Source: Kribbella pratensis
GTDB lineage: Bacteria; Actinomycetota; Actinomycetes; Propionibacteriales; Kribbellaceae
Reading direction: 5' to 3'
DNA: 64,000 bases
Assembly (NCBI RefSeq): GCF_004366075.1
Contig: NZ_SODU01000002.1
Span: 1,612,758 to 1,676,757, forward strand
The translations under genes were made by a program, and so were the position numbers. The notes beneath the pieces were generated by a model that was not told the origin of the DNA, ran no database searches, and saw only the letters and a list, made by a program, of their open reading frames with translations. Shown in pieces: positions 43,181 through 59,105 of the stretch (the first letter of the stretch is position 1; every line of letters begins with the position of its first letter).

Positions 43181-43253
43181 GCCGGTGTGGCGCAACTGGC
43201 AGCGCACCGCTCTTGTAAAGCGGGGGTTAGGGGTTCGAGTCCCCTCACCGGCT
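43181..43253 (+). tRNA. tRNA-Thr (anticodon UGU)
   Basis: This 73-base cloverleaf is complete. The acceptor stem GCCGGTG/CACCGGC is perfect, the D-stem is GCGC/GCGC, the anticodon stem CCGCT/AGCGG holds loop CTTGTAA with anticodon TGT at 43214-43216, and the T-arm AGGGG/CCCCT has loop TTCGAGT. The discriminator base is T and CCA is not encoded. Its 3' half is duplicated at 58450, which marks it as the attachment site of the island that follows. Confidence 0.95.
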
Positions 43254-43283
43254 CTCTGACTGGGAAGATAAGTGGTCGCTTAT
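43212..43283 (+). repeat. Left attachment-like direct repeat, anticodon loop to beyond the tRNA 3' end
   Basis: This 72-base segment runs from CTTGTAAAGCGGGGGTT in the tRNA through GGGAAGATAAGT to GTCGCTTAT. It matches 58450-58522 with six mismatches and one single-base gap. The match includes about 30 bases past the tRNA, so it is more than shared tRNA sequence. Confidence 0.85.
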
Positions 43284-43963: not shown

Positions 43964-44869
43964 GTGAACGACGGCAGGCTTGGCAACATCGAGGCCATCG
44001 TCCCGGCGTCCCTGGCGGACCGGATCCGCTCGTATCACTCCGCCGGCTCAGCATGGCTGCAGGATCTGCCGGACCTGATCGCAAGCTGTGTGACCCAGTG
44101 GGATCTCACGTTGCTGCCAGCGTTCGAGCCGGGTGGCGATTCGAGCTGGACGGCGCCGGTGAAGCGGAGTGGCGGAGACCTGGCGGTACTCCAAATTACG
44201 GTTCCGCTGCCGGTCCACCACGATCACATCCTTGCCCTGCAGGCATGGTCAGGGCGAGGCGCGGTGCGGCTTTTCGCCCACAACCCAGCGATCCGGGCCA
44301 CCTTGATGGAGTGCTGCGTCCCGGGTATCGACGCAGCGGATCTGTCGCCGGACGAGGCCGATGACGTCGCCGTCAAGGTCCTATCGCAACTGTGGGCGGT
44401 CACTCCTCCGGCTTCGGGGCTTGAACCCCTCACCGCGGCCGCCGTGCAGCGTGCGCGAGTCATGGAAGCTCGTGCCGACCAGTTTGGTGACGTTGTTGAT
44501 CCAGGGCCGTTCCGCGAAGCAGCCCAGATGTTCACCTCGCTGCCTGCATCATCGGCTCGTACTGTCCTGCTCCACGGCGACTTCCATCGCCGCAATGTCC
44601 TTCTGTCGGGACGAGGCTGGCTGGCCATCGACCCCTCGTCGATGGCCGGCGACCCGTCGTTCGACGTCGCGATGTTCCTCCAGCACGACATGCACAACCC
44701 CGCCATGACCACACGCGTCGACGCACTGGCCGACCGGCTCGGGCTCGAACGCCAACGCACGAGGGCATGGCTGTTCGCTCTAGCAACCCAAGCGGCATCC
44801 TGGCACCTGTCCATCGGAGACAGGCCGACGCACGACGCATACAGCCGCGCTGCGTCCACGCTGCTGTGA
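43964..44869 (+). CDS. Aminoglycoside/streptomycin 6-phosphotransferase-like kinase
   Basis: This 301-residue protein has the APH(6)/streptomycin 6-kinase layout. The catalytic loop is LLHGDFHRRNVLLS (Asp206), the metal aspartate is in AIDPSSMAGD (Asp223), and LQAWSGRGAVRLFAHN is the family pattern before the hinge. The position where relatives usually have the ATP-binding lysine (VLKI) reads VLQIT, so activity is uncertain. The GTG start at 43964 has no strong upstream site. It is island cargo just inside the integrase relic. Confidence 0.8.
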   Translation: MNDGRLGNIEAIVPASLADRIRSYHSAGSAWLQDLPDLIASCVTQWDLTLLPAFEPGGDSSWTAPVKRSGGDLAVLQITVPLPVHHDHILALQAWSGRGAVRLFAHNPAIRATLMECCVPGIDAADLSPDEADDVAVKVLSQLWAVTPPASGLEPLTAAAVQRARVMEARADQFGDVVDPGPFREAAQMFTSLPASSARTVLLHGDFHRRNVLLSGRGWLAIDPSSMAGDPSFDVAMFLQHDMHNPAMTTRVDALADRLGLERQRTRAWLFALATQAASWHLSIGDRPTHDAYSRAASTLL

Positions 44870-50342: not shown

Positions 50343-50690
50343 TCAGGCCGGATGGGCTGTCGAGTGGTCGCGGCGGCGCTGGATGCCGAGGGTGATCCCT
50401 AGGCCTACGCCACCCAGCGCGATGGCGCCCAGTGCACCGAGCGCGGCTGAACTCACGTCGACGGCGGGTTCGGGCTGCGCGGCCTCGGGTGTGGGCATGA
50501 GCGGGTGATCCAGTCCGACGTGCACGTCACCTGGCTCGGGTGAGACGTACACGTCACCTGGCTCGGGTGAATATTGCGCCATCGCCGGCGCGGCGGTTGT
50601 CATGAGGGCGAGGCTGATTGCGGCGCCTGCCGCCAACTGGGCGAGCCGGGTGGTCATGGACTGCTTCGTGGTGCGTGCGGCGTTGGTCAT
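50343..50690 (-). CDS. Small secreted or membrane protein with SPEPGDV repeats
   Basis: This 115-residue protein has a signal peptide (LAAGAAISLALMTTAAPAMA, cleavage near residue 38), then two adjacent copies of SPEPGDV(Y/H)V, a Pro/Glu-rich stretch, and a C-terminal hydrophobic segment (SAALGALGAIALGGVGLGIT) followed by RRR. That layout is a short surface-anchored peptide. I do not recognise a family. Its start is 165 bases from the divergent SARP-nSTAND gene, suggesting shared control. The repeat is a 21-base DNA duplication. Confidence 0.7.
   Translation of the reverse strand: MTNAARTTKQSMTTRLAQLAAGAAISLALMTTAAPAMAQYSPEPGDVYVSPEPGDVHVGLDHPLMPTPEAAQPEPAVDVSSAALGALGAIALGGVGLGITLGIQRRRDHSTAHPA
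50530..50576. repeat. Tandem direct repeat within the small secreted protein gene
   Basis: The sequence CACCTGGCTCGGGTGA occurs twice in register (beginning at about 50527 and 50554), along with flanking ACGTACACGT, and codes the duplicated SPEPGDV unit. A recent slippage duplication is likely. Confidence 0.65.
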
Positions 50691-50855
50691 GGCTTCCTCT
50701 CCTCTGTCGGCGGGATCTTCGTGATCGACGATCCAGATGCGCCTCGAGGTGTTGGCACTGTTGTCGCGCGCGCCGGTATCGGATCGGCGCAGAGCGGTAT
50801 CAGCGTGGTATCAGTCGCCTTGACGGGTGCCTGAGAGTGGTGGACTGTCGAAAAC

Positions 50856-53800
50856 GTGGTGATCGCCGTACTCGGCCCACTAACCATCGAGGGGGAGTGG
50901 AGGAACCTCGCACGACGCGATCGCGTCGTCCTGGCCGCACTCGCGGTGCATCCGGGAGAGGTTGTCAGCGCTGGGGTGCTCGCTGACGCGCTGTGGGGAG
51001 AACGACCGCCCGCCTCGGCGGTCAAGGTGATCCAGGGTTGTGTGGTCCGGCTTCGGAAGTTGCTCGGCAGCCATTCGATCGAGACGTCACCGGACGGTTA
51101 CCGGTTGACCATCCCGCACGACCAGATCGACAGTCAGCGCTTCGAGCGTGCGGTCGGACGGGCTGGTGCGCTGCTGGCGGTCGGCGAGGCAGAACGTGCG
51201 GCGGTCGTGCTGGCCGACGTACTGACGCTCTGGCGCGGTAGGCCGTTCGAGGAGATCGCGGAGTGGGACAGCGCCCGGATCGAGCTGGCCCGGCTGACTG
51301 AACTGCGGCAGTTCGCGCAGGAGTTGTACATCGAGTCCGCGCTGCGGTCCGGCGGCCATGACGGGGTCTTGAGCCAGGCCAAGGCGTTGACCGCGGAGGC
51401 GCCGCTGCGCGAGCGGAGATGGGCCCTGCTCGCGACGGCGCAGTACCAGGCCGGCCGGCAGGGAGAGGCGCTGGAGACTCTGCGACGGCTGCGTGTGGTC
51501 CTCGACGACGAACTCGGGCTCGACCCGAGTCCGGCGATCGACGCGCTCGAGCAGGCGATCCTGCGCCAGGATCGGGCGCTGTCGAGTCCGAGCGCCCTGC
51601 CGGAACCGAGCGCGGCCTGTCCCTACCAGGGGCTGAGTCCGTACGACGTGGACGACGCCGAACTGTTCTTCGGCCGCGACACCGAGGTCGCTGCCGGATT
51701 GCGGAAGTTGTCCGATCACTCGATCCTCGCTGTGGCCGGTCCGTCCGGCTGTGGCAAGTCCTCACTGATCAGAGCAGGTGTGGCCGCAGCGTTGCGTGCC
51801 GACGGCGGCCATATCGTTGCGATCACACCGGGGCTCCATCCGATGAAGGCGCTCACTGCCGCGCTGCCGGGCGTTGGGCCACGGCCGACTCTGGTCGTCG
51901 ATCAGTGCGAGGAGGTCTTCTCGCTGTGTCAGGACGAAGGGGAGCGGCGGGCGTTCTTGTCCCGGTTGACCGAGCAAGCCACGGATGCGGCCCTGATCCT
52001 GGCGTTCCGAGCCGACGGGCTGGCAGACATTTCTTCCTATCCGGGCTTTGCCCATGCCGTGGAAGAAGGGCTGCACCTGCTCACTGGTATGTCCGAAGCA
52101 GAGCTCCGAGCCGCGATCACCGAGCCCGCGCGACTCGCCTCCCTGATCGTCGAACCTGGACTGGTTGACCTGCTGGTGGCTGAGGCTGCGGGTCGGCCGG
52201 GTGCTTTGCCGCTGCTGTCGCACGCCCTGGCCGAGACCTGGCAACGCCGGGAAGGCCGGACCCTGACTGTCGCTGGCTATCGCGCTTCTGGTGGCATCCA
52301 GGGCGCAGTGGCACAGTCGGCGGAGCAGGTCTATGCACAGCTCACCCCCGGGCAACGGCCTATGCTCAAGGCATTGCTGTTGCGTCTTGTGGCGTCCGGG
52401 CCTGACAGACAGCCCGTGCGCAGCCGGTTGCCGCGGCGTTCGGTCGTCACCGGCCCGGAGTCGGATCAGCTCGTGAACCGGCTGATCAGCGCTCGCCTGG
52501 TGACCAGCGACGACGGCGTCGTCGAACTGGCGCACGAGGCGCTCGCGCGGGCCTGGCCCCGGCTGCGCGGCTGGCTCGACGACGACCTTGAAGGCCAGCA
52601 ACTCCTCCATCACCTCACCCAGGTAGCCGACTCCTGGGATTCCCTGGGGCGTCCGGACAGCGAGCTGTACCGCGGCGTCCGCCTCGCGAAGGTATGGCAG
52701 TGGCGCGACCAGGCGGCACCCGACCTGACCGCTACGGAACAAGATTTCCTCTCTGCGAGCAGACAGCTCGCTGATGCGGAGTTGCGTGCGGCCGAGAACC
52801 GGGCCAGGCACGAAGCGAGGATCAACCGGCGGCTGCGTGCCGCGCTCGCCCTGGCCGCCACCCTGCTGGTCGGTGCCTTGATCGCCGGTGTCCTGGCGGT
52901 CGGCCAGGCACAGCGAGCCGATCGCCAGGCGGCTGCCGCGGAACAGTCCGCGACGATCGCCGCGGCCGGCCGGGCCGGTGCGAAGGCCGTCGTACAAAGC
53001 GACATCGACACCTCACTCCTCCTCGCGGTGGCCGCGGTCCGGATGAACCCGTCGCCCGAGTCGCGAGCGAACCTGCTCGCAGCGCTCGCGAAACACCCGC
53101 AGCTGATCAGCTCCCTCGAGACCGAACGGGTGGATTCCTACGGTCTGGAGGTCAGCGCGGATGGACACCAGGCATTCATCTACACCGCGACGAACCATGT
53201 ACTCAGCTACGACCTGACCACCGGAAACGCCATCGCGTCGTACGAGCCGCCGAACCGCTCGGGTGGAGCACGTCACCTGGACCTCCTGGGCCCGATGGCA
53301 CGCAGCCCTGGTGGTCGGGAGCTCGCGGTCGGCACGCCGCCACCAACCACAGAACCAGTCCTGTTGCTCGATCCCACGACGCTCCAGCCGACCGGCCAGC
53401 GACTGCCGGGCTTCACCAAGACGCCTGCTCGTGCGACGCACGTCGGGTACAGCCACGACGGACGCTCACTCGTAGCGATGATCCAGTACTACGGCAACGG
53501 CGCGACCAGCGACTTCAGCGCCGGTGCAGTGTTCGTCTGGACCATCACTCCTGGCGCTTCGCCCGCTTTGCGAAAGGTCGTGCCACTACCCGCGGGAGCT
53601 GTTCAGGATGTCGTACTCAGTCCGGCCGGCGATCGGTTCTATCTGACGAAGCCGGTGGCCGCCTACGAAGTTGCCACCGGCAAGCAGCTCTGGTCGAGGG
53701 CCGATCTTGCCTTCGTCGACGCCGACGTCAGTCCCGACGGGAAGTCACTCGCGCTCGCGTGGGAGGCCAAGGACACCTCCAGCGCTGAGTACAGCGATGT

Positions 53801-55136
53801 GCTGGTGCTCGACGCGTCGACGGGAGCAACTGTGCATCGCTTGAGCAAACACACGAGCGAACTCCGTCATGTGCGGTTCTCCCACGCCGGCACGTGGTTG
53901 GTCTCGACCGGAGCCGACAATCGCGCCGTGGTGTGGGACACCGCGAGCGGAAGTCCGTTGGAGGAGATGCCGATCTTCGACGGTGACACTCTGACGGCGG
54001 CGTTCAGCCCGGATGACGACACGCTCTACACCTCGGGGGGCGATGGTGCCATCCGGAGCTGGGATCTGCCAGGGCGACATCGCTACCTCAGCTGGACGCG
54101 GAGGGCGCAGAACTTCCAGTCCGGATGTCGCGTCATAGCTCCCGGCGGGCGCCGCTACTTCCGGCTTCTCGACTACGATGCGGGCTACTTGGACCCAGGT
54201 GATCCCGTCGGAGGCTTTGTCGACAGCACCACCGGAAAGGTCGTCCCCTTCGATGCAAGCCAGATCGGCGTCTCGACACGATCCTGCGGCACCTGGCACC
54301 CGGATGGAGCCCGGTTCGCCATGGGCGATTCGAACGGGAAGGTCTTTGTCGAGGATGCCCGGACCGGTCGCTTGCTGGCCAACCGGAAGGTGACCGCCTC
54401 CAGTGTGCTGGATCTCGACTACAGCGGACTGGACGGCAGCCGCCTGGTCGTTGGTGACGAGTCCGGCCTCGCCAGGATGCTGGATGGAGCCACCCTCCGC
54501 GATCTCAGCAAGCCCGTTCAGGTTGGTGGTCCTGTCGCCTTCCTGTCGGCGAGCCCGGACAATCGGTCCGCCTTCGTGGTGATCGGAGGCCGCCACATCT
54601 CCGACCGGCTTGACGTTGACTCCAATCGTTGGGCGTTGGTCGACTTGACGGCCGGCCGGGTGGTCCGGCGTGGGAGCTTCTCGATGAGCGTCCCGAGCCT
54701 CGTCGCGTTCGCCCCGGACGGGACGCGGGTGGCCGTCGGCAGTGAGAAGGGAGAGGTGCTGGTCGTGGATCCAGCGACCGGCAAGGACATCGCGGCACCG
54801 CAGCTCGTCCATCAAGGCTTTGTCAACGGCATCGCCTTCTCGCCCGACAGTTCGCTGCTGGTCTCGGCCGGCTTCGATGCCGGGGTGAGTCTCTTCGACG
54901 GCAAGACCGCGGCGTTGCTGGGCTCAATCGCGACGCCCCACCAGCAAATGGTCACCGCCGATTTCCTGCCAGACGGCCACACTATCGCGATCGCCGCGTA
55001 CGACGAGGGTGTCTATCACTGGGACACCCGGCTGGAGCACGCCGTCGACACCGCCTGCCGGATGACTGGGCGCGATCTGACCGCAGCGGAGTGGCGGGAG
55101 AACTTCGGCGATCGGCCCTATAGGACGACCTGCTAA
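50856..55136 (+). CDS. SARP-nSTAND1-transmembrane-WD40 signalling protein
   Basis: This 1,426-residue protein has four parts. An OmpR-type winged helix plus bacterial transcriptional activation domain (about 1-245) follows the AfsR/SARP pattern. A nSTAND1 ATPase comes next, with the family opening CPYQGLSPYDVDDAELFFGR, Walker A GPSGCGKSS (about 295-303) and Walker B LVVDQCEEVF (about 346-355). One transmembrane helix lies at about 665-685 (LALAATLLVGALIAG). A C-terminal beta-propeller of about seven WD40-like blades (770-1400) has many SPDG/APDG turns. It should couple ligand binding at the propeller to ATP-driven assembly and gene control. It starts at GTG 50856 or 50859 and is divergent from a small secreted protein. 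Confidence 0.9.
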   Translation: MVIAVLGPLTIEGEWRNLARRDRVVLAALAVHPGEVVSAGVLADALWGERPPASAVKVIQGCVVRLRKLLGSHSIETSPDGYRLTIPHDQIDSQRFERAVGRAGALLAVGEAERAAVVLADVLTLWRGRPFEEIAEWDSARIELARLTELRQFAQELYIESALRSGGHDGVLSQAKALTAEAPLRERRWALLATAQYQAGRQGEALETLRRLRVVLDDELGLDPSPAIDALEQAILRQDRALSSPSALPEPSAACPYQGLSPYDVDDAELFFGRDTEVAAGLRKLSDHSILAVAGPSGCGKSSLIRAGVAAALRADGGHIVAITPGLHPMKALTAALPGVGPRPTLVVDQCEEVFSLCQDEGERRAFLSRLTEQATDAALILAFRADGLADISSYPGFAHAVEEGLHLLTGMSEAELRAAITEPARLASLIVEPGLVDLLVAEAAGRPGALPLLSHALAETWQRREGRTLTVAGYRASGGIQGAVAQSAEQVYAQLTPGQRPMLKALLLRLVASGPDRQPVRSRLPRRSVVTGPESDQLVNRLISARLVTSDDGVVELAHEALARAWPRLRGWLDDDLEGQQLLHHLTQVADSWDSLGRPDSELYRGVRLAKVWQWRDQAAPDLTATEQDFLSASRQLADAELRAAENRARHEARINRRLRAALALAATLLVGALIAGVLAVGQAQRADRQAAAAEQSATIAAAGRAGAKAVVQSDIDTSLLLAVAAVRMNPSPESRANLLAALAKHPQLISSLETERVDSYGLEVSADGHQAFIYTATNHVLSYDLTTGNAIASYEPPNRSGGARHLDLLGPMARSPGGRELAVGTPPPTTEPVLLLDPTTLQPTGQRLPGFTKTPARATHVGYSHDGRSLVAMIQYYGNGATSDFSAGAVFVWTITPGASPALRKVVPLPAGAVQDVVLSPAGDRFYLTKPVAAYEVATGKQLWSRADLAFVDADVSPDGKSLALAWEAKDTSSAEYSDVLVLDASTGATVHRLSKHTSELRHVRFSHAGTWLVSTGADNRAVVWDTASGSPLEEMPIFDGDTLTAAFSPDDDTLYTSGGDGAIRSWDLPGRHRYLSWTRRAQNFQSGCRVIAPGGRRYFRLLDYDAGYLDPGDPVGGFVDSTTGKVVPFDASQIGVSTRSCGTWHPDGARFAMGDSNGKVFVEDARTGRLLANRKVTASSVLDLDYSGLDGSRLVVGDESGLARMLDGATLRDLSKPVQVGGPVAFLSASPDNRSAFVVIGGRHISDRLDVDSNRWALVDLTAGRVVRRGSFSMSVPSLVAFAPDGTRVAVGSEKGEVLVVDPATGKDIAAPQLVHQGFVNGIAFSPDSSLLVSAGFDAGVSLFDGKTAALLGSIATPHQQMVTADFLPDGHTIAIAAYDEGVYHWDTRLEHAVDTACRMTGRDLTAAEWRENFGDRPYRTTC

Positions 55137-55297: not shown

Positions 55298-58030
55298 TCA
55301 GTTGGGCTGGGTGCCCGTCACCGTGACCTCGGCCAGACTGATCACACCGGCGCTGGTGGCCGGCGACTGCACCTTGACGTAGCGGGCCACGGTGTTGGTC
55401 GGCAGACTGGTGACCGCCCCCGGCGTCGCCCCGAGGTTCAGCTTGGTCACCGTGGAGTCGGCCATCAGCTGGGCGTAGGTCCGGCCCGACATGCTGGCGG
55501 TGGAGAGGAACACCACCGCGTTGTTCAGCTTGTCGGCCGAGGCGTCGGTCCGGTTGTGCACCGTGACGTTGCCGACCCGGGAATTGGTCAGCAGGTCGAC
55601 CTGCCACCACGGCTGCGAACTGGACGCCGTCCGGCTCACCGACCCGGCGGCGAAGACGCCGTTGGTGTTCCCATCCACGGCCCGGGCGGCGGTGCCGACG
55701 TCGGTCGACGACTGCGTGGCCGGCCGGTTGGTGGACAGGTTCACTGCGCCGGTGGTGCCGCCGACCTGCACCTCGGCCAGGTTCAGCGTGGTGAAGATGC
55801 TCGACAGCTGCACCCGCACGTACCGGCCGGTGGCGTTGCCCGCGTTCAGGGTCAGGCTGTTGGTGGTGGACGAGAACGCCGAGAACGACATCTCCTTCAC
55901 CGAGTCGTCGGCCTGCAGCGAGGACATCGACCGGCCGGTCATGTCGGTCGAGGAGATGAACACCGAGCCGCTGCCCATCCGGTTCGAGTCGGTCCGGCTC
56001 CACACCGTGACCGTGGAGACGGCCGCCGCGGAACCGAGGTCGACCTGCCACCACGGCTGGATGGAGGTGTTGGTCTGGGTCACCGAGCCGCTCGCGAACA
56101 CGCCGTTGGTGTTGCCGTCGACCGCCCGGGCCGCCACCGCGGTACCGCTGGTGCTCGACTGGGTGGCGGTCTTGCCCCGGGCCAGGTTCGGACTGGTGAC
56201 GGTCACCGTGGTGGTCGACACCGCGCTGTCCACCTTGCCGTCCCGCACGACCAGGCTGAAGGTCAGCGTGGCCGGTGTGGCCGGGGCGGTGAAGGTCGGC
56301 TTCGCCGCCGTCGTACTGGACAGCGTTACCGCCGGTCCACCGGTCTGGGTCCACGCGTAGGTGAGGTCGTCGCCGTCGGCGTCGCGGCTGCCGGAGCCGT
56401 CCAGCGTCACCGTGATACCCGTGTTGACCGACTGCGCCGTACCGGCGTTCGCGACCGGCACCTGGTTGACCGGGGTGGTGGTCACCGTGGTGGTCGCCGC
56501 CGCGCTGTTGGCCTGGCCGTCCCGCACCACCAGGCTGAAGGTCAGCGTGGATGCCGAGGACGGGGCGGTGAAGGTCGGCTTCGCCGCCGTCGTACTGGAC
56601 AGCGTCACCGCCGGTCCACCGGTCTGGGTCCACGCGTAGGTGAGGTCGTCGCCGTCGGCGTCGGTGCCGGACCCGTTCAGAGTCACGGTCGTACCAACCA
56701 CGACCGACTGCGGCGCACCGGCGTTCGCCACCGGGAGGCGGTTGCTCGACTCCGACAGCGGCCGTGGGGTGCAGTTGCTCATCGAGACCGTGAAGGGCTC
56801 GAGGTCGTTGTTCGTCTCGATCATGGCGCCGTCCTCGGAGCCGCTGAGCGAGATGGTGTGCGCCTGACCGGCGTACACGAGCGTCTCCCGCCACACGTCC
56901 GTACCGCGCTCCCACTCGATGATCAGGGCCCGGCCAGTGACCACGCGGACGGTGCACCCGTCGGCCCAGGCACCCATGTACGGGTAGAGCGGAACGCCCG
57001 ACTCCGAGTAGACGGTGCGCGCGTTGTAGCCGGCGCGGCCGTTGCCCTGGTAGGCCGTGCCGACCGGCCAGGTGATCACGCCGCCGTACCAGTCACCGGG
57101 ATCCTCGCCGGTTCCGGCGTAGCGCCAGCGGGCGTTGACCCAGGAGACCGGGTCGCAGGTGGTGGGGTCGGTACAAGCGGGCGGCGGCGGCGGGCCCGGC
57201 TCGCCGGGCACGAAGGCGTACTCGAACGGCGAACCGCTCTGCACGCTGACGATGCTGCTGCTGCTCAGGGTGCTCGACACGGTGTAGCTGTCGCCGGTCT
57301 GCAGCGCGGCCAGCGACGAGTGCGAGCCGTCGGCCGGGCCCGCGTAAACCGTGGCGCTGCCGGACGTGACGGTGATCTTCCAGCCCGCCACCTTGGACAC
57401 CGGGGCGTAGACGTCGTGGGAGACGGTGTAGCCGTAGCGGGCCCGGACCGGCTCGGCGGCGGCCGGCCAGACTGCCGTGTTGCTGGTGTCCGACGGGCCC
57501 CACGGGCACGGGCTGCTGGTGCAGTTCCAGGTGGCCAGCACGGAGCTGTCACCGGAGGCCGGCGGCGGGTCGGTCGGGGTGCCGGGGGTGATCGTGTACT
57601 CGAACGACCCACCGTCCTGCACGCTGACGATGCTGCTGCTGCTCAGGGTGCTCGACACGGTGTAGCTGTCGCCGGTCTGCAGCGCGGCCAGCGACGAGTG
57701 CGAGCCGTCGGCCGGGCCCGCGTAAACCGTGGCGCTGCCGGACGTGACGGTGATCTTCCAGCCCGCCACCTTGGACACCGGGGCGTAGACGTCGTGGGAG
57801 ACGGTGTAGCCGTAGCGGGCCCGGACCGGCTCGGCCGCGGCCGGCCAGACTGCCGTGTTGCTGGTGTCCGACGGGCCCCACGGGCACGGGCTGCTGGTGC
57901 AGGACCACGTCGCCACAACGGAGGACGCAGGATCACCCTCGGCTGCCTGCGCGGGCGAGGCGGTGAGGCCTAGCACCATCACGACCGCAGTAGTGAGAAC
58001 GAAAAATGCGGTCGCGAAGCGTTTCGACAT
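55298..58030 (-). CDS. Secreted PKD/discoidin adhesin-like protein with duplicated N-terminal module
   Basis: This 910-residue protein has a signal peptide (FATAFFVLTTAVVMVLG, cleavage near PAQA-AE). Two nearly identical modules of about 95 residues follow (43-138 and 169-264; ATW(S/N)CTSSPCPWGPSD to SSSSIVSVQ). A further domain comes next (about 280-425; WRYAGTGEDPGDWYGG), then two PKD/K319L-like domains (about 430-610) that share the segment DADGDDLTYAWTQTGGPAV. Two F5/8 type C domains (about 614-760 and 760-910) end it. No catalytic domain is recognised, so it looks like a surface or matrix adhesin binding glycans. ATG 58030 gives the clean signal peptide. Confidence 0.85.
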   Translation of the reverse strand: MSKRFATAFFVLTTAVVMVLGLTASPAQAAEGDPASSVVATWSCTSSPCPWGPSDTSNTAVWPAAAEPVRARYGYTVSHDVYAPVSKVAGWKITVTSGSATVYAGPADGSHSSLAALQTGDSYTVSSTLSSSSIVSVQDGGSFEYTITPGTPTDPPPASGDSSVLATWNCTSSPCPWGPSDTSNTAVWPAAAEPVRARYGYTVSHDVYAPVSKVAGWKITVTSGSATVYAGPADGSHSSLAALQTGDSYTVSSTLSSSSIVSVQSGSPFEYAFVPGEPGPPPPPACTDPTTCDPVSWVNARWRYAGTGEDPGDWYGGVITWPVGTAYQGNGRAGYNARTVYSESGVPLYPYMGAWADGCTVRVVTGRALIIEWERGTDVWRETLVYAGQAHTISLSGSEDGAMIETNNDLEPFTVSMSNCTPRPLSESSNRLPVANAGAPQSVVVGTTVTLNGSGTDADGDDLTYAWTQTGGPAVTLSSTTAAKPTFTAPSSASTLTFSLVVRDGQANSAAATTTVTTTPVNQVPVANAGTAQSVNTGITVTLDGSGSRDADGDDLTYAWTQTGGPAVTLSSTTAAKPTFTAPATPATLTFSLVVRDGKVDSAVSTTTVTVTSPNLARGKTATQSSTSGTAVAARAVDGNTNGVFASGSVTQTNTSIQPWWQVDLGSAAAVSTVTVWSRTDSNRMGSGSVFISSTDMTGRSMSSLQADDSVKEMSFSAFSSTTNSLTLNAGNATGRYVRVQLSSIFTTLNLAEVQVGGTTGAVNLSTNRPATQSSTDVGTAARAVDGNTNGVFAAGSVSRTASSSQPWWQVDLLTNSRVGNVTVHNRTDASADKLNNAVVFLSTASMSGRTYAQLMADSTVTKLNLGATPGAVTSLPTNTVARYVKVQSPATSAGVISLAEVTVTGTQPN
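56250..56667. repeat. Direct repeat coding the two PKD domains
   Basis: About 130 bases around GGTGAAGGTCGGCTTCGCCG and CCACCGGTCTGGGTCCACGC recur some 280 bases apart (near 56255-56380 and 56535-56662) with few differences. They encode equivalent parts of the two PKD domains and show recent duplication or gene conversion. Confidence 0.75.
57239..57524. repeat. 286-bp direct repeat, copy nearer the 3' end of the gene
   Basis: This segment is repeated 378 bases away at 57617-57902 with about one base difference (GGCTCGGCGGCGGCC against GGCTCGGCCGCGGCC). The 378-base offset equals 126 codons, so the reading frame is kept and one extra protein module is encoded. Confidence 0.9.
57617..57902. 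repeat. 286-bp direct repeat, copy nearer the 5' end of the gene
   Basis: This copy of the segment at 57239-57524 encodes the first CTSSPCPWGPSD module, close after the signal peptide. Near-complete identity at wobble positions means the duplication or a conversion event is very recent. Confidence 0.9.
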
Positions 58031-59105
58031 GCCGGCCCCCGGATTATGACTCTCCCCTTGCGGCAAACCGTAGCTCAAGTCGCTCTCTGTCAACCGAAAA
58101 AGAAGCGAAAAGACGCGACGGCGAGCCATTTGTTATGGACTTCATCACGCTATGGAAAACTCCCATTACTCATTGATGAGAAATGGGGGGATCGCGAGGC
58201 TCGGTGCCGGTTTCGCTGAACGGCGCCGGTGCGCGCTCGAGCATCCGCCTGCAGGTGAGCCGAACGCTGTCACGCCGGCCGCAACGCACACTGTCGCCGC
58301 CAAAGCGGCACCGGATGAGATTGAGCCGACCGGATCGGCCACCACGATCGATCCATCGAACCCGTGACCGACGACGACAACGAACGGGTTGTCGCGGCGA
58401 TCGATCGGATACCTCGATCGACTCCAAGACGGGCATTCATCCAGGCTGGCTTGTAAAGCGGGGGTTGGGGGTTCGAATCCCCTGACCGGCTCTCCGACCT
58501 GGGAAGATAAGTAGTCGCCTATGATCTTCGGAGCGGCTACTCAAGGTTTACTCGGCTGGCCTCCGCGGAGCACCCGTCGCCGCGCTGTTGCGTTGGGACC
58601 AGTCCTGAGGGAATCGCCGTCCCGGCGCTACTCGGTGGGCCGGGGCGCGCGAGACCCAGTTCTCGTGCTAGACCGCACTCGACGTGTCCCGGCTCGACCG
58701 AGCTGTACCCCGTGGCCGCTGACAGCGGCCCAATGGCTGCGCGGGTGATGTGACCGCTCCGATAGTGCAGACCGCCGCGAAGCGTGCGGGAGCGCCGCGA
58801 CGCGCGGACGGTCGTAGCCGTGGAATTCGGCCATCTGCTGTCCTTGCGGACTGGACGGCGGCCCCACGCTGTTGGAGGGCTATACCTCCATAGGACAACC
58901 GGAACCAGCCACCGTCAACCTGCCATCGTTGTCATCCGGAGCGCGAAGGCTGACGTGAGGTATTCCGGGTACCGCTCAATGATTTGTTGCCTGAACCGCC
59001 TTGATCTGACCGCGGACCGTTGAATCGTCAATGGCCGGAGCGCCGGAGCGCCGCTCTGACAAGGACTCTGGCAAGGAACGGGCGATGCTTGCCGTAGGCG
59101 CCGCA
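58031..59105. other. Gene-free stretch holding the right island boundary
   Basis: No gene is supported here. The first part (58,070-58,200) is notably A/T-rich for this genome, including AAAAAGAAGCGAAAAG and ATTACTCATTGATGAGAAAT, and is probably the promoter region of the discoidin gene. The right attachment-like repeat is at 58450-58522. A perfect hairpin GGCCGCT-GAC-AGCGGCC lies at 58714-58730. Confidence 0.5.
58450..58522 (+). repeat. Right attachment-like repeat containing a tRNA-Thr 3' fragment
   Basis: Sequence from CTTGTAAAGCGGGGGTT through a T-arm (GGGGG/CCCCT with TTCGAAT) and GACCGGCT to GGGAAGATAAGTAGTCGC matches the tRNA-Thr 3' half and its downstream flank at 43212-43283, about 90% identical. 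No 5' tRNA half precedes it, so it is not a functional tRNA. It is the expected displaced 3' end after integration. Confidence 0.85.

Follow-up and report, generated by a model that had tools for sequence, protein, structure and literature searches.

A predicted membrane-bound SARP-STAND-WD40 regulator of Kribbella and its divergently encoded predicted small surface protein form a conserved module with a candidate SARP-type operator

We analysed a 64,000-nt stretch of the Kribbella pratensis genome (8.39 Mb), namely positions 1,612,758 to 1,676,757 of contig NZ_SODU01000002.1, further referred to as the window. It contains two divergent genes separated by a 165-base gap (50691–50855). The first one (50856–55136, plus strand, GTG start in agreement with the starts of its relatives) encodes a 1426-aa protein with a SARP-type DNA-binding head, an nSTAND1 NTPase, a transmembrane (TM) helix and WD40 repeats; it is called the receptor below. 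The second one (50343–50690, minus strand, ATG start) encodes a 115-aa partner predicted to be exported and anchored in the membrane. The open reading frames (ORFs) and Pfam matches agree with this architecture, which had been proposed in a preliminary description of the window. The receptor and the small gene form a conserved module and are true genetic partners. The receptor is best read as a transmembrane one-component regulator, which very probably activates the divergent surface-protein gene; for the further claim, that the small surface protein in turn influences the receptor in an accessory role, we see an even chance. Computational support was obtained for the pairing, the coding selection on the small gene, the predicted export, the operator geometry and the predicted topology.

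The genus survey covered 38 Kribbella genomes; proteins matching at E≤1e-200 were taken as close receptor relatives, and small-protein matches were counted at E≤1e-8. Twelve genomes contain 21 receptor relatives. A small gene lies divergently upstream of 20 of them, 125–174 bases away, and each of the 20 small-protein matches adjoins a receptor. A lack of conserved linkage, which the preliminary description had named as a refutation, is thereby excluded. The window genome itself has two more full-length receptors (52% and 51% identical), each with a related divergent small gene upstream, and close relatives of the small protein were located in Kribbella steppae and K. kalugense. With one exception (L057, discussed below), the receptor ORFs have the length of 1400–1433 aa. 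The modules occupy different genomic sites: seven of the 20 fetched flanks represent one neighbourhood, two pairs share others, and the rest have little in common. At one site (L106, G006:C31:270000–289999), where related genomes have single copies, two receptor modules stand in tandem; they belong to different subtypes and are 77% and 53% identical to the window copy. Overall, the evolutionary distances of the small proteins and the receptors correlate with r=0.74, as expected given that the genes are linked.

The ratio of nonsynonymous to synonymous substitution rates (dN/dS) of the small gene is 0.24–0.64 in 11 pairs, consistent with purifying selection. Because of this coding selection, non-translation, which the preliminary description had named as a possible refutation, is unlikely. 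As judged by eye, the start codon is preceded in the 20 relatives by a purine-rich sequence resembling a Shine-Dalgarno element. The small size of the ORF and the absence of a family for its product over the cut-off in Pfam, as well as in NCBIfam and PADLOC, would fit a chance ORF or a bystander. Set against the selection, the Shine-Dalgarno-like sequence and the linkage to 20 of the 21 receptors, this explanation is hardly credible.

An export signal is present in all 20 Kribbella small proteins. In the window copy the signal peptide comprises aa 1–38 and ends in APAMA (50577–50690, minus strand, as all features of this gene; identified from the alignment and an export-signal scan). Next come the SPEPGDVYV/SPEPGDVHV repeat (aa 41–56, 50523–50570) and the conserved DxxS element, TM helix and RRRD motif (aa 78–108, 50367–50459), the C-terminus consisting of the TM helix and an RRRDH tail. 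The stem is the most variable region, with a mean pairwise identity of 0.25, against 0.43 for the signal peptide and 0.69 for the DxxS-TM-RRRD part. By eye, the stems fall into PEPG-like, WPDEG(S/T)GYP and NYPxYDPxYEV types. The small protein had been presented as secreted, with SPEPGDV repeats and a membrane tail. Export and anchoring are predicted here as well, and the two repeat copies are real (the self-match was equalled by none of 300 shuffles), but the repeat is not conserved. SPEPGDV was therefore rejected as a conserved ligand: it occurs twice in the window copy, once in L040 (K. steppae-like) and in none of the other 18 proteins, and in the window copy it is a local expansion identified by alignment and shuffling. 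One Kribbella protein (L047) fits the lipobox pattern in addition to having the C-terminal helix. LPXTG-like motifs mark sortase substrates; none was seen by eye before the C-terminal helix in the 20 aligned small proteins.

The gap between the two genes contains a candidate SARP-type operator (50775–50812, plus strand; found by repeat search and alignment), with GGTATC boxes at 50775, 50796 and 50807, that is, at spacings of 21 and 11. On one side of it lies the predicted receptor promoter (50820–50848, plus strand), TTGACG (50820–50825) and GACTGT (50843–50848) separated by 17 nt. The receptor transcript is probably leaderless, since the start codon is located 7 nt past the −10 hexamer. On the other side, the −10-like hexamer of the small gene, GACAAC (50760–50765, minus strand), is 9 nt from the proximal operator box and has no −35 box. 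In the operator search, the highest-scoring set of three direct repeats was sought without specifying their sequence; it was scored out of 18 and compared with 100 mononucleotide shuffles per locus. The triple repeat scores 16–18 in 30 of 31 loci (Kribbella and outside), each time equalled by 0–2 of 100 shuffles, the only failure being L057 (12, equalled by 95 shuffles). The box spacing is 21/11 in Kribbella and 22/11 in other loci. The box pattern was then scanned in 30 loci, L057 being left out, and was recovered in 29, L051 being degenerate. In these 29 loci the distance from the box to TTGAC is 7 nt in 21 loci and 18 nt, one 11-bp turn more, in seven, and L072 has no TTGAC; nAnnnT follows 17 nt past TTGAC in 28 of 28. 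On the opposite strand, a −10-like hexamer stands at a distance of 9 nt. Its position 2 is A in 28 of 29 loci and its position 6 is T or C in 27 of 29; the best −35 match on this side averages just 1.8 of 6. As the loci are related, these counts do not represent independent events. A stronger argument comes from boxes that changed in concert outside Kribbella: GGTATG in L071 and L098, GGTACT in L073 and in two of the three boxes of L099. Mixed boxes are seen in L068, L070, L072 and L075.

According to PMC10936776, the direct repeats of SARP promoters are spaced by 11 or 22 bp, 8 bp separate the 3' repeat from the −10 box, and the −35 box is poor. The small-gene promoter follows this rule, with the spacing of 21 and the distance of 9 nt (measured from the GGTATC hexamer) each off by one base. 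In the window genome the 21/11 triple at 0–2 mismatches is found at the three modules only (none for the reversed-pattern control), and six further matches have three mismatches. As a control we took nine of the 13 other SARP matches of the window genome, some with uncertain start codons. They have no such repeat (scores of 12–14, equalled by 23–97 of 100 shuffles). The first ORF listing for this control omitted frames of ≥300 codons; the second one recovered four of five known modules. We infer from the promoter sequences that the SARP head would bind the operator and activate the small gene.

The N-terminus of the receptor comprises a winged-helix DNA-binding domain (Trans_reg_C, aa 17–83, 50904–51104, Pfam E=3e-7; all receptor features are on the plus strand) and a BTAD domain (aa 91–236, 51126–51563, E=7e-33). 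The presence of both is corroborated by structure matches: a profile of the N-terminal parts of the 21 relatives matches the AfsR structures 8hvr (4–242), 8k60 and 8jke (4–304) as well as EmbR 2fez (5–241). The nSTAND1 NTPase follows (aa 256–601, 51621–52658, E=1e-107), and its Walker A motif GPSGCGKSS is invariant in all 21 relatives. There is just one strong TM helix (aa ~663–681, 52845–52901, LLVGALIAG core, mean hydropathy >2); weaker hydropathy windows (1.6–1.9) in some relatives fall within folded domains. In all 21 relatives the helix is preceded by a net charge of +3 to +6 and followed by one of −2 to +2. Many WD40 Pfam models cover aa ~980–1395. The part beyond the helix (52911–55133) is modelled by AlphaFold2 as a helical stalk with tandem propellers at moderate confidence (pLDDT 76.7, pTM 0.52), and Foldseek ranks WD40 propeller proteins first for this model. 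Beyond the TM helix, 19 of 20 receptors have four or six cysteines and one has five. These cysteines vary between subtypes in pairs, one such pair being two adjacent residues, and are thus as expected of extracytoplasmic disulfides, though the argument is indirect. Hence the DNA-binding domain is predicted to be inside, with a single TM helix and a propeller sensor outside. The membrane-tethered transcription factor with an outward sensor, suggested in the preliminary description alongside an inward one, is in this way borne out by prediction, from the charge pattern and the cysteines.

Among the receptors, the mean pairwise identity is highest in the winged-helix, BTAD and nSTAND1 domains (0.75–0.77) and in the TM helix (0.75). 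It amounts to 0.71 for the C-terminal tail, 0.68 for the linker and 0.62 for the stalk, and is lowest for the propeller part (0.43). In both proteins, variable outer parts (stem 0.25, propeller 0.43) contrast with conserved TM segments (0.69 and 0.75). We propose the following scheme, in which SARP binding and activation, the nature of the signal and the feedback are the inferred parts. The outer part of the receptor would meet a signal, and the nSTAND switch would allow the SARP heads to come together on the operator with its three GGTATC boxes. The assembled heads would recruit RNA polymerase to the small gene, with its −10-like box and no −35, and the receptor gene, across the operator, would keep a promoter of the TTGAC type. 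Once induced, the small protein would be exported and anchored with its variable stem on the propeller side, and may there act back on the receptor as an accessory subunit, in feedback or co-sensing.

Outside the genus we surveyed overlapping sets of genomes, 394 from the class, 147 from the order and 150 from the family. The best two to four receptor candidates per genome were scored, and the absence of modules in these surveys is accordingly weak evidence. Together with the record MT836527.1 (L172, see below), eleven loci were readable (L068, L069, L070, L071, L072, L073, L075, L094, L098, L099 and L172), and the divergent layout persists in all of them. In nine, the divergent ORF starts with a hydrophobic export segment (N-terminal, 12-residue mean hydropathy >2), and six of these nine fit the lipobox pattern in its PROSITE form. 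In the remaining three, the L069 partner ends its export segment in LAAC, off the pattern, its gene being cut by the contig end, the L070 partner looks secreted, and the L075 partner has an N-terminal hydrophobic helix. By eye these partners are unlike the Kribbella small proteins, and a profile of the latter (A2) detected none of them in the 394 class genomes; with 11 candidates scored per genome it retrieved only its own copies and a single match at E=5e-5 (G365). The L098 partner has three PYxDxAERLTPxDL repeats and the L072 partner three DPRGxHGxP motifs. The L069 partner matches PGA_cap, and the L070 partner has a weak cupin match below the cut-off. Two neighbouring receptor modules, L068 and L094 (G213:C24), encode lipoproteins with a common RMDF(G/N)D motif. 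A match in Thermocatellispora (L011) was dropped as chance: the matched stretch lies, by eye, in an apparent prolipoprotein diacylglyceryl transferase.

A record labelled Bacteriophage sp. (MT836527.1, L172) contains a SARP-nSTAND receptor module with 93% of the query covered. This unannotated entry (9.9 kb, 75.8% GC) is probably bacterial DNA. Its partner is a 253-aa lipoprotein without a Pfam family, and its boxes, read by hand after the rule had been formed, are GCTGTC-22-GATGTC-11-GGTATC-7-TTGACG, a weaker repeat. The second "phage" match, MT835531.1, covers 56%. No relative was found in a scan of viral contigs; among the plasmid matches listed, at most 56% of the query is covered, with no record reaching 80%. 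The preliminary description had suggested a signalling or defence pair and had placed both genes on a mobile island. An anti-phage pair with the receptor as a STAND sensor would agree with the STAND architecture, with the patchy distribution (12 of the 38 genomes) and with the several genomic sites. However, PADLOC yields only a marginal mad8 match (E=9e-4), the effector position is taken by a transcription factor, the sensor is predicted to be outside the cell, and none of the four scanned neighbours is a known defence gene; we therefore consider this explanation very improbable. Nor was the island upheld in the strict sense: although the module is patchy and found at varied sites, the four neighbouring ORFs scanned contain no integrase or transposase domain.

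Through the weaker small-protein matches in Kribbella (E from 4e-7 to 0.01), six of which were fetched, another group of small proteins with a membrane anchor was recognised, A5 (...LQAGASALGGAG...YRRRH). At E≤1e-4 it occurs in 16 of the 38 genomes, a few of the matches in this count being receptor-linked. LuxR/LAL P-loop motifs are located within 1.5 kb of 22 of 30 fetched A5 loci, compared with four of 138 control pieces. Among the 30, L151 is receptor-linked and counts as a miss, and L133 and L148, both hits, represent the same gene. Pfam identifies AAA_16 and GerE in two A5 neighbours and GerE in one, and detects no outer domain in the LAL-LuxR regulators beside A5. For the one A5 protein examined no Pfam or NCBIfam family was found. 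The A5 proteins beside LAL-LuxR regulators are seen at L126–L155, e.g. L125:6207–6569 and L120:6504–6866. The WPDEG(S/T)GYP motif is common to A5 and receptor-linked proteins (16 sites in seven genomes), and all seven genomes are among the 12 with receptor modules, genome kinship being left uncontrolled.

L057, the sole receptor without a small gene, also lacks the operator, so that in the one case seen small-gene loss accompanied operator loss, in favour of the proposed circuit. Several other observations weigh against it. The ORF of L057 has 1358 aa, with only aa 3–1199 of the query aligned, and its genomic site is common with an intact module (L117 and L119). As this long receptor ORF is kept although both the small gene and the operator are missing, a receptor may be maintained by itself. 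In turn, the genomes of L121 and L123, two weaker small-protein matches, have no full-length receptor; the small gene of L123 lies next to a SARP/receptor remnant. Pair members can therefore be lost singly. Given nSTAND, the partial correlation between the divergence of the stem and that of the propeller is weak (0.26, against 0.18–0.21 for other pairs tried). Internal repeats are significant in only six of 27 partners tested (20 from Kribbella and seven of the 11 outside). Two of the 11 outside loci (L073 and L099) have divergent ORFs without an export signal. One of the nine control SARP genes (L025) has a divergent 432-aa lipoprotein gene and no repeat; exported proteins encoded divergently from a SARP gene thus also occur apart from the module. 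Finally, since small proteins with the same stem motif adjoin LAL-LuxR regulators in which Pfam shows no outer domain, the stem may serve something other than the propeller.

Some of these observations favour the same circuit with the small protein as output only (a shield, adhesion or envelope function), the receptor sensing something unrelated. Partners of different sequence stand on the same operator layout, some of them larger or enzyme-like (L069, L070, MT836527.1), and the decayed loci L057 and L123 lost one member and kept the other. Above all, we keep this reading as a possible, if lesser, alternative because WPDEG(S/T)GYP-stem proteins are found beside both LAL-LuxR regulators, at the excess over control given above, and receptors. 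Against it stand the conservation of both membrane segments and the single dedicated target next door, with no other 21/11 site within two mismatches in the window genome, looser and two-box sites being left out. An anti-activator that holds the regulator off via the TM helix and the RRRDH tail, in negative feedback, would explain why the TM-RRRD part is the best conserved one of the small protein (0.69). LAL regulators near related small proteins could likewise meet only a cytoplasmic tail. As most partners outside Kribbella are lipoprotein-like or secreted and have no cytoplasmic part, we regard such an anti-activator as decidedly improbable.

A ligand role of the small protein for the propeller is doubtful. 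We also think it unlikely that the modules are self-recognition loops, in which the outer double propeller would read short acidic, Pro and Tyr motifs of its own induced surface protein. Such loops would operate on the same or a neighbouring hypha, as contact-dependent positive feedback. Motifs such as WPDEG(S/T)GYP, present in both receptor-linked and LAL-LuxR-linked proteins, would then form a code on the cell surface that more than one regulator displays and recognises.

If activation by a tethered receptor holds, this would be a SARP working from the membrane, in a conserved regulatory layout that keeps swapping its surface partner. To our knowledge, little has been established about the signals of bacterial STAND-WD40 proteins and the way in which they are sensed. 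The receptor described here has a probable direct target gene, its operator is defined and its exported partner is dedicated to it, so that its on-state could be followed with a simple reporter and signals or ligands could be screened.

Elsewhere in the window, an APH_6_hur aminoglycoside/hydroxyurea kinase family gene (43964–44869, Pfam E=5e-28) lies downstream of tRNA-Thr (43181–43254). The gene at 55298–58129 (minus strand) is convergent with the receptor gene; its product of 943 aa contains PKD, bacterial Ig and F5/8 type C domains.

Known systems resemble parts of the module. CseA-type lipoproteins are exported accessories beside a Streptomyces envelope-stress sensor and in this respect are similar to the small protein, but the CseA system consists of a two-component system and a sigma factor and is not known to include a STAND or SARP protein. 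Apaf-1 likewise combines a STAND NTPase with two WD40 propellers, and the outer model has a Foldseek TM-score of 0.51 (query-normalised) to the apoptosome structure 3j2t. Apaf-1 carries a CARD where the receptor has the DNA-binding head, and, unlike in Apaf-1, the propellers of the receptor are predicted outside the membrane, in a model of moderate quality. Transmembrane transcription regulators of the ToxR/ToxS and TcpP/TcpH type share with the module a DNA-binding head inside, a TM helix, a sensor outside and a membrane partner. The receptor differs from them in its BTAD domain, nSTAND switch and WD40 sensor.

In the open-licence PMC literature we found no described SARP+nSTAND+WD40 or BTAD+nSTAND1 protein, and no description of a Kribbella transmembrane WD40 regulator or a Streptomyces SARP+WD40 protein. 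By term search, neither BTAD nor WD40 is mentioned in the survey PMC10269533, and neither SARP nor BTAD in PMC7159879; passages of PMC8195603 found on other terms contain no such receptor. The closest known proteins are AfsR, which activates the small gene afsS, and other large SARPs (SARP-NOD-TPR). They resemble the receptor in having a SARP head fused to a STAND-type NTPase and repeats 11/22 bp apart near the −10 box of the target (PMC10936776, PMC10972967). The receptor matches the NCBIfam AfsR model far below the cut-off (135 vs 1430 bits). It differs from AfsR in that nSTAND1 takes the place of NB-ARC/NOD and predicted outer propellers that of the TPRs; moreover, it has a TM helix, and the product of its presumed target gene is exported.

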